Source of the DNA: Verrucomicrobiota bacterium
GTDB lineage: Bacteria; Verrucomicrobiota; Verrucomicrobiia; Limisphaerales; JACDHS01
Length of the DNA stretch: 40,405 bases
Assembly (NCBI GenBank): GCA_013820875.1
Contig: JACDHS010000035.1
Span: 1 to 40,405 of the forward strand
Direction: 5' to 3'
Positions 1,246 to 38,690 of the stretch are shown one piece after another. The translations under genes were made by a program, and so were the position numbers. How positions within the stretch are numbered: the first letter of the stretch is position 1; each line of letters begins with the position of its first letter. The notes below the pieces were generated by a model. It had not been told where the DNA came from. It did no database searches and was given only the letters and a program-made list of their open reading frames with translations.

Positions 1246-1537
1246 GATCAGAAGGTCTCAGGACGGGGTGTTCGTGACGAAAAAACGGATCAGAAGGTCT
1301 CAGGACGAGGTGTTCGAGATGAAAAAACGGATCAGAAGGTCTCAGGGCGAGGTGTTCGAGATGAAAAAATGGATCAGAAGGTCTCAGGACGAGGTGTTCG
1401 AGATAAAAAAGCGGATCAGAAGGTCTCAGGGCGAGGTGTTCGAGACGAAAAAACGGATCAGAAGGTCTCAGGGCGAGGTGTTCGAGATGAAAAAATGGAT
1501 CAGAAGGTCTCAGGGCGAGGTGTTCGAGATGAACGGG
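1246..1537. repeat. 42-bp minisatellite, 7 units
   Basis: Units start at 1246, 1288, 1330, 1372, 1414, 1456 and 1498, each beginning GATCAGAAGGTCTCAGG. All are exactly 42 bp, with only a few substitutions (GGACG/GGGCG, ATG/ACG). Because 42 is a multiple of 3, several frames on both strands stay open and give artificial 14-residue repeat proteins. The last unit is followed by an inverted copy of GGTCTCAGGGCGA at 1538-1550, which can close a 13-bp hairpin. The array starts where the similarity of the 187-bp repeat ends and lies inside a cassette body without an evident gene. Confidence 0.95.
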
Positions 1538-27768: not shown

Positions 27769-28257
27769 ATGCCCCGCAAATCACACAAACTTCCCATTGA
27801 TTCTCCCGAACGTCGGCGCCTGCCTATTTTGCTTCGACGCGCGTGGTATGGATTGAACCAGGCGTTTCGACGACGCATCGCGCACCTGGGCATTACCCCG
27901 GATCAGTTCACCGCACTGCGGACCTTGCTCGAACATGAAGCGGAGGGACTGGTGCAAAGTGAATTGACCACTCTGATGGCGAGCGATCCGAACACCATTG
28001 CGTCGCTTGTGGAACGAATGGAGAAGGCCGGCCTGGTGACGCGTAGAACCGATCAGGCAGATCGGCGTGCGAAACGAATCGAAATCAAAGCATTGGGCCG
28101 TGAGAAATACGAGGAAGCCAGAAAAATTGCGATTGCGGTGCAGACGGAAATCCTGGGCGCTCTTGCCGAGGACAAAAGGGAGGAGTTCCTGCAAAATCTC
28201 TCAGCCGTGGCGGACTCCTGCCGAAGCGCTGCTGAACAGGGTCGGCCAAAAATGTGA
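27769..28257 (+). CDS. MarR family transcriptional regulator
   Basis: The 162-residue protein has the MarR winged-helix fold: LGITPDQFTALRTLLEH (helices before the wing), LTTLMASDPNTIASLVERMEKAGL (recognition helix region, cited as two pieces in the family) and RTDQADRRAKRIEI as the wing, where the 'D-RA' motif is typical. The flanking helices would dimerise. It is transcribed away from the propeller operon with 194 bp between them, so it may control that operon, itself, or both. The ligand is unknown. Confidence 0.9.
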   Translation: MPRKSHKLPIDSPERRRLPILLRRAWYGLNQAFRRRIAHLGITPDQFTALRTLLEHEAEGLVQSELTTLMASDPNTIASLVERMEKAGLVTRRTDQADRRAKRIEIKALGREKYEEARKIAIAVQTEILGALAEDKREEFLQNLSAVADSCRSAAEQGRPKM

Positions 28258-28288: not shown

Positions 28289-28410
28289 ATGACCCAAACT
28301 CTCCGTGTCGGACTCATCGGTTACAAATTCATGGGGAAAGCGCATTCCAATGCATGGCGGCAGGGTGAATCGCTTTTTCCCCGAACTGCCGGCGCGCATC
28401 GAATTGCCCT
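28289..28410 (+). pseudogene. Gfo/Idh/MocA oxidoreductase, 5' fragment, frameshifted
   Basis: The frame starts MTQTLRVGLIGYKFMGKAHS and NAWRQ, the Rossmann N-terminus of Gfo/Idh/MocA NAD(P)-dependent sugar dehydrogenases. After GGCAGG an extra G shifts the frame; the expected family sequence VNRFFPELPARIELP continues one base out of frame. At about 28410 recognisable gene sequence ends and the 41/42-bp array begins. The family is normally 350-400 residues, so about 90% is gone. Frameshift plus truncation make it a pseudogene. Confidence 0.8.
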
Positions 28411-28416
28411 CAAAAA

Positions 28417-28690
28417 GACTTTTTTGGCCAAAGTCAGGACCGTCTGGCCATCGAAACGGACTTTTTTGGCCAAAGTCAGGACTGACTTTGCTCAAAAAAG
28501 TCTTTTCCAGCCAAAGTCAGGACTGACTTTGCCCAAAAAACTCTTTTTCGGCCAATGTCGGGACCGACTGCCCACCCAAACGGACTTTTTTGGTCATTGT
28601 CAGGACTGACTTTGCTCAAAAAAGTCTTTTCTGACCGTTGTCAGTCCTGACTTTGGCCAAAAAACTCTTTTTTACGCAATGTCAGGACCG
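28417..28690. repeat. 41/42-bp array with 124-bp higher-order repeat
   Basis: Units start at 28417, 28459, 28500, 28541, 28583, 28624 and 28665, with lengths 42, 41, 41, 42, 41, 41. The core is (G/C)ACTTTTTTGGCCAAAGTCAGGAC-like (in two parts: GACTTTTTTGGCC and AAGTCAGGAC). Units 1, 4 and 7 resemble each other, as do 2 and 5, and 3 and 6, giving a 124-bp period. GACTTTG...CAAAAAAGTC inverted elements can form hairpins. The array directly follows the truncated oxidoreductase. The remaining 28691-28892 shows no gene I can support. Confidence 0.92.
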
Positions 28691-28892
28691 GACCAGCCTC
28701 CAAAAAGAAGTCTTCGTCTCGCGTAACCGCCTCTACATTAACGACTATTAGCGCAGAAAGGCGATTCAACTGCCGTTTCAAGGTGAAATGGCGTGTTCAC
28801 GAATAACTTCCATTTCGCGCCCTCGAAAACCATCTTGTCCGCTACATCGGGGGGCCTGAAACCAAACTGGGTCAGTATTCGTTGTCACCGAA

Positions 28893-28912
28893 GACCTGCT
28901 TCGAAGCAGGTC
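28893..28912. repeat. Perfect 20-bp palindrome
   Basis: GACCTGCTTCGAAGCAGGTC is a perfect palindrome just at the stop codon of the ferredoxin-like gene. It could help end that transcript or protect its 3' end, but there is no T-run on either side, so I do not call it a terminator. Confidence 0.6.
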
Positions 28913-29303
28913 AGAGGCGCGACTTCCCACGACCGCTATCTTTTTCGAAATTGGGATTCCTTGCGAAGGCGTACTGTTTGACGATGCGACCTTTGATCAG
29001 ATGTTCCTGGATAATCTCCTCAAGAACTTCTTCCGTGCAGGAGTGATACCAGGTGCCTTCCGGATAAACGACGGCGATGGGTCCATTCACACAAACCCGC
29101 AGGCAGTTTACTTTGCTGCGAAAGACAATCGGTTCCGAGCCGGCGAGCTTCAATTCCTTTAAGCGTTTCTTCAGAAAATCCCAGGAACGCAGTCCCGCTT
29201 TTTTCGAGCAACACAATGGCTCGCTTTGATCGCAACAAAGAAAAATGTGGCGCTTGAACTTTTCAAGACCGAGCGATTCAACGGCTTCTTCCAATTCGTC
29301 CAT
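28911..29303 (-). CDS. Thioredoxin-like [2Fe-2S] ferredoxin domain protein
   Basis: This 130-residue protein has cysteines at 23/24 (FLCCDQ), 31/32 (CCSKK), 67 and 71 (NCLRVC), the spacing of thioredoxin-like 2Fe-2S ferredoxins, with the following VNGPIAVVYPEGTWY typical of the family. It would carry electrons in the cytoplasm; its partner is unknown. It starts 16 bp after fmt and is probably the last gene of the adk-like/fmt transcript. The C-terminal tail after residue 110 is basic and non-conserved. Confidence 0.85.
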   Translation of the reverse strand: MDELEEAVESLGLEKFKRHIFLCCDQSEPLCCSKKAGLRSWDFLKKRLKELKLAGSEPIVFRSKVNCLRVCVNGPIAVVYPEGTWYHSCTEEVLEEIIQEHLIKGRIVKQYAFARNPNFEKDSGRGKSRL

Positions 29304-35770: not shown

Positions 35771-36793
35771 TTAATGCGTAAGTAAATCCAGCAGTCGCAG
35801 CCCGTTTTCCCCTAAATTCCATTTCCCTTTGGTTTGCGTCACCAGTTTCCGACACGGATTTTTCTTATATTCAGCAGCATTTACGGAAATAAGGTGATAC
35901 TTGCCGCGGCTTTTCATCTCTTTATCCGATAGCGGAATCGCTTTGACCGGCACCCCATTATAATTCATCACCAGTTCGTAACCGACAATTTCGCCGCGTG
36001 CTGATGGGGTGTGCTCGACCAGGGCCGCATAACGTTTCAGCCACGGAAAGCTCGTGTTGCGCACCTGCACCCGGAAGAGTTCCTGCCCGCTTTGAATCCA
36101 GCGGACCAGGTTGAAGTCTTTGCCCTCGCGATGACTTGCCAGGAGCGCGAGTCGCGGATCCAGTCCCAGCAAATTTTGGCCGTTCCACAGCCCGTGATCG
36201 TTTTTTCCGGTGAAATGCTTTTTGTGCCAGATGGGAAATCGTTCATTGACGAAGAGATTCAGCTCAAAATGGAGATGCGCGCGTTCTTTTGAAATTGCCT
36301 CCCGCGTATTGGTTGTCCGGCCCATCAACGCGATGGCTTCCCCCGCCTTCACGTTCTGCCCGGCTTTCAGTCCCGTTCGCACTCGGGATAAGTGCGCATA
36401 CAACGAATAAACCTCCAGACCATCAATTTGATGCCGGATAACAATGTAGTTTCCGTAATTGGATAATGATGATTTCCCATTGATATAAACAACAGTGCCA
36501 TTGGCTGTCGCGAGAACTGGATCGGTGGATTCGCCATCTTTATCCCGTTGAATACTGCGGATGTCGATCCCCTCATGCATTTGCCAGCCCCCGGAACGCA
36601 CACAGCCATAGGTGCCACTTTCCCAGGTGCGCGCAATTGTAGGGCAAAAATATTGGTCCTGTTCCTGCAAGTTGAACAGGGACTGGTTTGCCGTCGGCAA
36701 CTTAAAGGTTTGGGAATGAACAGATGCTGCCCAAAAGAGCAGAAGGACGAGAACGAAGGACGAACGATTCACTCCGTAAAGGATGGAGTTCAA
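35771..36793 (-). CDS. M23 family peptidase
   Basis: The protein has a signal peptide (SSFVLVLLLFWAASVHS), followed by the LytM-type zinc site: MHEGIDIRS (HxxxD), an Ala-rich core YSLYAHLSRV and HLHFELNLF (HxH). It is predicted to cut peptidoglycan cross-links or act as a regulator. The start is uncertain: TTG at 36793 lies inside the 7-bp tandem repeat, and a GTG at 36772 (MNRSSFVLV) gives a cleaner signal peptide. C-terminal residues 230-340 are an unassigned domain. Confidence 0.85.
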   Translation of the reverse strand: MNSILYGVNRSSFVLVLLLFWAASVHSQTFKLPTANQSLFNLQEQDQYFCPTIARTWESGTYGCVRSGGWQMHEGIDIRSIQRDKDGESTDPVLATANGTVVYINGKSSLSNYGNYIVIRHQIDGLEVYSLYAHLSRVRTGLKAGQNVKAGEAIALMGRTTNTREAISKERAHLHFELNLFVNERFPIWHKKHFTGKNDHGLWNGQNLLGLDPRLALLASHREGKDFNLVRWIQSGQELFRVQVRNTSFPWLKRYAALVEHTPSARGEIVGYELVMNYNGVPVKAIPLSDKEMKSRGKYHLISVNAAEYKKNPCRKLVTQTKGKWNLGENGLRLLDLLTH

Positions 36794-36846
36794 AGTTCAA
36801 AGTTCAAAGTTCAAAGTTCAAAGTTCAAAGTTCAAAGTTCAAAGTT
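36791..36846. repeat. 7-bp tandem repeat, 8 copies
   Basis: CAAAGTT is repeated eight times without a break. It covers the translation initiation region of the peptidase gene, in which the first TTG lies. Copy-number slippage could alter the leader and therefore expression. Degenerate relatives (TTTGAACC, CTTGAACC) follow to about 36890. Confidence 0.97.
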
Positions 36847-37654: not shown

Positions 37655-38149
37655 GTTCCCGCCTCAGCAAAAAACTTATTCACCAGCGCGCTTCTTCCCG
37701 AGCTTTTGAATGTGAATAACGTGGGCATGTGTGTCTTCCTCGGTGTCTCCGGATAGGCTCTCCAGTGAATAACCCTGTGGATATCGTTCCATCGTCAAAA
37801 CTAAAATATTTGTTAAGCTGATCACGTTCTTTGAAAGAACTGGAGTCAAGCGGCGGACGCAAAGAAAGCTGCGGAAACTTCAGCGGATAATCCCGGGTGA
37901 CCGGGGAAAGGTTGAGCCAGGCTGGTTGGCTCGGCCCCTCCAGAAACACAATCGCAAGATCGGCTCTAGAGGCATTATTCACCTGTTCCCCTGGCGCGGT
38001 CGCACGCGTCAGTAATGCGAATCGGGAACATGGCGGCCAGGCGCGATTAGAAACCGCGTTGAACCGAGTCAAGTAGCGCAAGTTGGTTTCGGACTTGCGC
38101 GAATCGCAGTTACCCAAAGAGGTTTGTGGTTGCTACTGCGGACCAGCAC

Positions 38150-38690
38150 GGATCGGACGACTCTGGCGATTGATAAAAGCTTTCGCCAAATGAAAGACGC
38201 CGAAAGGCGGGACAAACTGAGCGTTCGACCGGGAAGGACACACTGTCACAGGCAAAACGTGTGAAACCTTCCGAAACGCCGGCGATGCCTCAAAAACACC
38301 GCTGGCTTGTGAACTAAAAGCAACCTGAGAGATAAGAGGCAAGACCCGTCCTGCGCTGGCCAACGCGTTGTCAAAAGCAACGGCCGTCCTGCGCGATGGG
38401 TCAAGACGCGGAGAAAAGATCACAAACGTGTCTTGACCTGGTTTGCAAGCCGGTGGCGCAACCACCGGTTGAAGCGAGCTAACAAGCCTCACTCGATAAT
38501 TCAGTGTCGCGAGACGCTGAACGGCCCCGCTACGAGGCCGGACACTCCGCTTGCCGTGGAGAAGTAGCGTCGGGAAGCCGGCAGCCACTTTGTGGCGCCC
38601 AATGTCGGCCCGGGAAAGAGAGCGTGGCGCACTCCCAACCCCGACTTTTGTCCCCGTTCAACCGCAATGGCTGGACGGGGATTCTTGTTT
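38150..38690 (+). ncRNA. Candidate large structured RNA
   Basis: Stable nested hairpins cluster here: CGCC-GAAA-GGCG (about 38197-38208, GNRA loop), CCGGTGG-CGCAA-CCACCGG (near 38449-38468), CGCTAC/GTAGCG enclosing CTCC/GGAG (about 38526-38570), and a terminator-like CCCCGT...ACGGGG followed by TTCTTGTTTTT (about 38653-38693). The minus-strand frame 38133-38588 is open but GTG-started, poor in start signals, and followed after one TAG stop by open sequence to 37680 in the same frame. I think that frame is a by-product of conserved RNA. The class is not identified; group II domain V and tmRNA/RNase P motifs are absent. Confidence 0.4.

Follow-up and report, generated by a model that had tools for sequence, protein, structure and literature searches.

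In the window, which is one whole contig (C27, 40,405 nt) of a Verrucomicrobiota draft genome (239 contigs, 5.7 Mb, 99% complete), a gene for a Gfo/Idh/MocA oxidoreductase (gfo) has been cut short, through ordinary genome decay, where a MITE/BOX-like element lies. In the best reading, which we consider probable, a copy of this element lay beside gfo and a later deletion joined codon ~40 of the gene to the element's left edge. The loss of gfo is routine erosion; the part that could matter is the unit of the tandem array within the element, since a constant length of 40–43 bp recurs across 25 unrelated sequence families of arrays in the portion of this genome that was sampled.

The open reading frame that starts at 28289 has a clear Gfo/Idh/MocA N-terminus (codons 1–25, MTQTLRVGLIGYKFMGKAHSNAWRQ), followed by a run of GGG where the orthologues have GG. 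Beyond the extra G the next frame continues the protein up to codon 39 (VNRFFPELPARIEL). With both frames joined, the remnant is 92%, 87%, and 78% identical over 37–39 residues to the intact orthologues (385–409 residues) of G001, which is of the same family, G003, and G013, respectively, and this bears out the sequence-only reading of a gene start of about 40 codons with a one-base frameshift. Up to 28404, 91 of 115 nucleotides are identical to G001, and the same number to G003; past this point identity falls to 5/16 and 6/16. Homology ends at 28404/28405 and the array begins exactly there, so the junction is as sharp as had been claimed, but it does not lie at about 28410. No Pfam model is matched by the broken ORF alone, which lacks complete NAD-binding and C-terminal domains, and the intact G001 orthologue matches PF01408 and PF02894. 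The remaining ~346 codons (~1 kb) are absent from the assembly, and no gfo sequence was found to the right of the array. We also considered an intact gfo elsewhere in the genome and rejected it: the best match is a full-length paralogue on contig C28 with 51% identity. The window gene is a dead remnant and not a working Gfo/Idh/MocA member, and its loss was probably recent because what is left of it is still 78–92% identical to the orthologues in protein.

Table 1. Positions of the features at and around the gfo junction in the window.
Feature	Position	Strand	Evidence and remarks
MarR-family regulator, left-hand neighbour, intact	27769..28257	+	PF01047; in relatives, orthologues stand next to a divergent PQQ gene
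5' remnant of gfo/idh/mocA gene, 39 codons, pseudogene	28289..28404	+	78–92% identical to intact orthologues as protein; DNA identity of 79%, ending at 28404
GGG run, one G more than orthologues, frameshift	28363..28365	+	Alignment with G001, G003, and G013
Tandem array with 41-bp units (about 7) composed of alternating palindromes; base of the predicted giant hairpin at 28404	28405..28690	+	TRF, inverted repeats, fold, copies elsewhere
Right module of the element, CCTCCAAAAAGAAGTCTT..CGCGTAACCGCCTCTACATTAACGACTATTAGCGCAGAAAG	28691..28760	+	Common to the copies on C43, C20, and C189
Right terminal repeat, GCGATTCAACTGCCGTTTCAAGG	28761..28783	+	Followed by TGA (28784–28786)
Thioredoxin-like [2Fe-2S] ferredoxin-type protein, right-hand neighbour, apparently intact	28911..29303	-	69% identity (residues 4–127) to G001; weak, sub-threshold PF01257 match

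TRF places the array at 28404–28690 with a period of 41 and 6.9 copies, which confirms that a 41-bp array adjoins gfo, and it reports a higher-order period of 124 bp (82% matches). The array is predicted to fold as one giant hairpin (-130 kcal/mol versus a shuffled mean of -83.8, z -8.2), the base of which coincides with the gfo junction. No Rfam family was found at the array locus. A second array in the window (1246–1533; 42-bp unit, 6.9 copies, 93% matches) is no more folded than shuffles, and kinship between the two arrays was rejected, the sequences being unrelated.

Rather than a local expansion, the array forms the core of an element dispersed through the genome. It also occurs at eight other places in the genome (on C204, C43, C87, C20, C60, C239, C2, and, as a short copy, C189), all of them between genes and 83–99% identical. 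It was absent from the 57 relatives searched and from a further 387 genomes drawn from across the phylum; public genomes and viral contigs each contained one isolated 20-mer match to the array core, and plasmids none. An alignment of the longer copies shows a common left edge (CC..TGCAAGACGGCCCTC), the units, and a common right edge; next comes either of two right modules, and several copies terminate in GCGATTCAACTGCCGTTTCAAGG. The number of units varies from about 2 (C189) to about 8, C20 and C60 each having one unit more, so that common edges enclose a variable number of units, as in BOX-type elements. On C60 a terminal repeat lies left of the array, about 140 bp away, and part of this left module is present on C43 and C87. 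The true start of the element is uncertain because the copies on C204, C20, and C239 lack the longer left module as well and begin directly at the common edge. The window copy, which abuts gfo, is the only long copy without even the left edge.

The right end of the window element belongs to a MITE-like family of terminal inverted repeats (TIRs). The CGGCAGTTNAA core of these repeats has 112 matches in the genome, versus 17 for a reversed control, and paired ends enclose 136–660 bp of varied content. In nine of about 17 convincing pairs, the TNA triplets flanking the two ends are identical; they stand one base beyond the CCTAAA end. Among the 56 ends selected for a CCTAAA-like outer sequence, TNA stands at the expected offset in 49 flanks, and shifted offsets give at most 9. 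TIRs together with TNA triplets are the MITE signature; terminal inverted repeats characterize the family as a whole, and the window copy has the right one only. The TGA that follows it is a TNA triplet without the usual extra base before it, and no TNA is found at the gfo junction. The outer triplets of the C204 copy are unlike (TCA/TGA), and none of the array copies has matching triplets on both sides, the left end of the window copy being lost. Among the genomes searched the TIR family is nearly confined to this one, and no transposase with these ends was recognised among the ORFs listed near TIRs. CCTAAA..CGGCAGTT ends with TNA duplications occur at about 100 places in this genome around very different insides, one of which is the 'CCACAGATGGACACAGATGAACACAGAT' type of repeat.

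Gene order in relatives, which the sequence-only reading had proposed as a check, proved uninformative. The gene after gfo in G001 is a TPR gene, and its counterpart in this genome is on contig C217 without gfo beside it. In many relatives the MarR gene adjoins the PQQ gene and gfo is not with them, and the window's neighbours were found near gfo in 0/6 relatives. The available relatives are too distant to reveal the ancestral arrangement: neither an empty site nor that arrangement was found among the genomes compared, and locating the deleted segment by synteny was rejected because the neighbours are not conserved.

The element would be a small, non-autonomous, MITE- or BOX-like mobile element with the array as its tandem-unit core, built from a left end, about 7 palindromic 41-bp units, a right module, and a CGGCAGTT-type terminal repeat, and presumably mobilised by a transposase acting in trans. 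A copy would first have been located beside gfo. An illegitimate deletion may then have fused gfo codon ~40 with the element's left edge, taking the last ~346 codons of the gene and the left end of the element. Hairpin cleavage and replication slippage are both known to leave deletions that end at hairpin bases, and one of the two is the likely trigger here because the junction is at the base of the predicted hairpin. We prefer this putative order, element first and deletion later, because the left edge is lost, TNA is missing, and the hairpin base is at the junction. Two options raised by the sequence-only reading fit: mobility, given the dispersed element with recurrent ends, and a deletion endpoint, given the ~1 kb of gfo that is gone from the assembly.

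The main rival is that the element inserted directly at gfo codon ~40 and that the distal target and the left edge were lost during the insertion or soon after. The array directly abuts gfo, TNA duplications mark the element family as mobile, and gene disruption by BOX insertion is known (PMC3049150), yet we consider this course of events unlikely: the left edge is trimmed and without TNA on that side, and the other copies are intergenic. Moreover, there is no gfo sequence beyond the right terminal repeat, which excludes a simple insertion and therefore requires a deletion anyway. In-place growth of the array by slippage, from gfo or adjacent DNA, would agree with the differing unit numbers of the copies, which indicate that units expand and contract. 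It is nevertheless extremely improbable and in substance refuted by the dispersed copies, since the array with its right module also stands at other loci and is without similarity to gfo. The proposal that such arrays arise or expand inside coding DNA was not supported: the same array and right module are found elsewhere, the other copies lie between genes, and the class is generally intergenic.

The junction could also be an assembly artefact that joined gfo to a repeat copy belonging elsewhere. The last 127 bases of C60 equal 28520–28646 of the window, the first 120 of C2 equal 28545–28664, and C60 and C2 overlap each other by 102. The pattern resembles a repeat branch in an assembly graph (k near 127), passing through the array, so the left and right flanks inside the array may have been paired wrongly. 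The gfo/array junction at 28404, however, is outside the overlapping stretch, the gfo tail is on no other contig end, and gfo is truncated under either pairing of the flanks, which makes an artefact improbable, more so than the direct insertion.

Nothing closer to the element than BOX was found in the literature searched. The BOX elements of Streptococcus pneumoniae and S. suis have the structure boxA-boxB(n)-boxC (PMC3049150), and the two share end modules around variable tandem units, a dispersed and mostly intergenic distribution, strong predicted structure, terminal inverted repeats, and occasional gene disruption. This likeness rests on build and not on sequence alignment; host phylum and sequence differ, the genome studied here has many unrelated unit families of one unit length, and the focal array forms a single large hairpin in the predicted fold. 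MITEs are similarly short and without a coding gene, with terminal inverted repeats, and the TIR family shares their high copy number within one genome and, in nine paired elements, TNA triplets like those of a target-site duplication. In contrast to MITEs, there are internal tandem arrays, the focal copy has one end only, and no parent IS was recognised. REP/BIME/REPIN sequences also form arrays of alternating palindromes between genes, but the units here are a regular 41 bp and the arrays measure ~285 bp.

We took a census of tandem arrays of at least 75 bp in 0.84 Mb of this genome, sampled from parts of the largest contigs and the window: the unit measures 40–43 bp in 44 of 46. These 40–43-bp arrays are mainly between genes, and array families with multiple copies are flanked by family-specific modules which, as in the focal element, enclose a variable number of units. 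G001, the only other genome of the same family in the array comparison, has 6 such arrays with other sequences in 170 kb, and genomes of other families (19 genomes) have one in 546 kb. No description of arrays with constant length and varied sequence was found in the literature searched. The length is common and the sequence is not, which points to a physical ruler rather than to sequence descent, and the combination suggests that such a ruler measures about four helical turns; candidates are a copying mechanism, a binding protein, and helical phasing. We tentatively propose, as a possibility and not as the likelier case, that 40–43-bp arrays, whatever their sequence, are made or maintained in this bacterial family by a process or DNA-binding protein, and that the arrays ride MITE-like elements and promote deletions like that of gfo. 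Two more general explanations were rejected: not every array is within a CGGCAGTT element (in 13 of the 44, such an end lies no more than 400 bp away, and only two have one on each side), and not every array is a hairpin (several fold no better than shuffles).

The window contains further features away from the gfo locus. A full-length match (37885–38635, 559.5 bits) to the rare 751-nt MISL RNA family (RF03079) and a 6S RNA (RF00013, 15612–15792) were identified. A perfect 7-bp tandem repeat, AGTTCAA x 8.6 (36787–36846), lies at the 5' end of an ORF on the minus strand (35771–36793). By eye, the stretch at about 1719–1808 resembles attC (TCTAAC and GTTAGGC, separated by an imperfect inverted repeat) and is possibly an integron cassette site.
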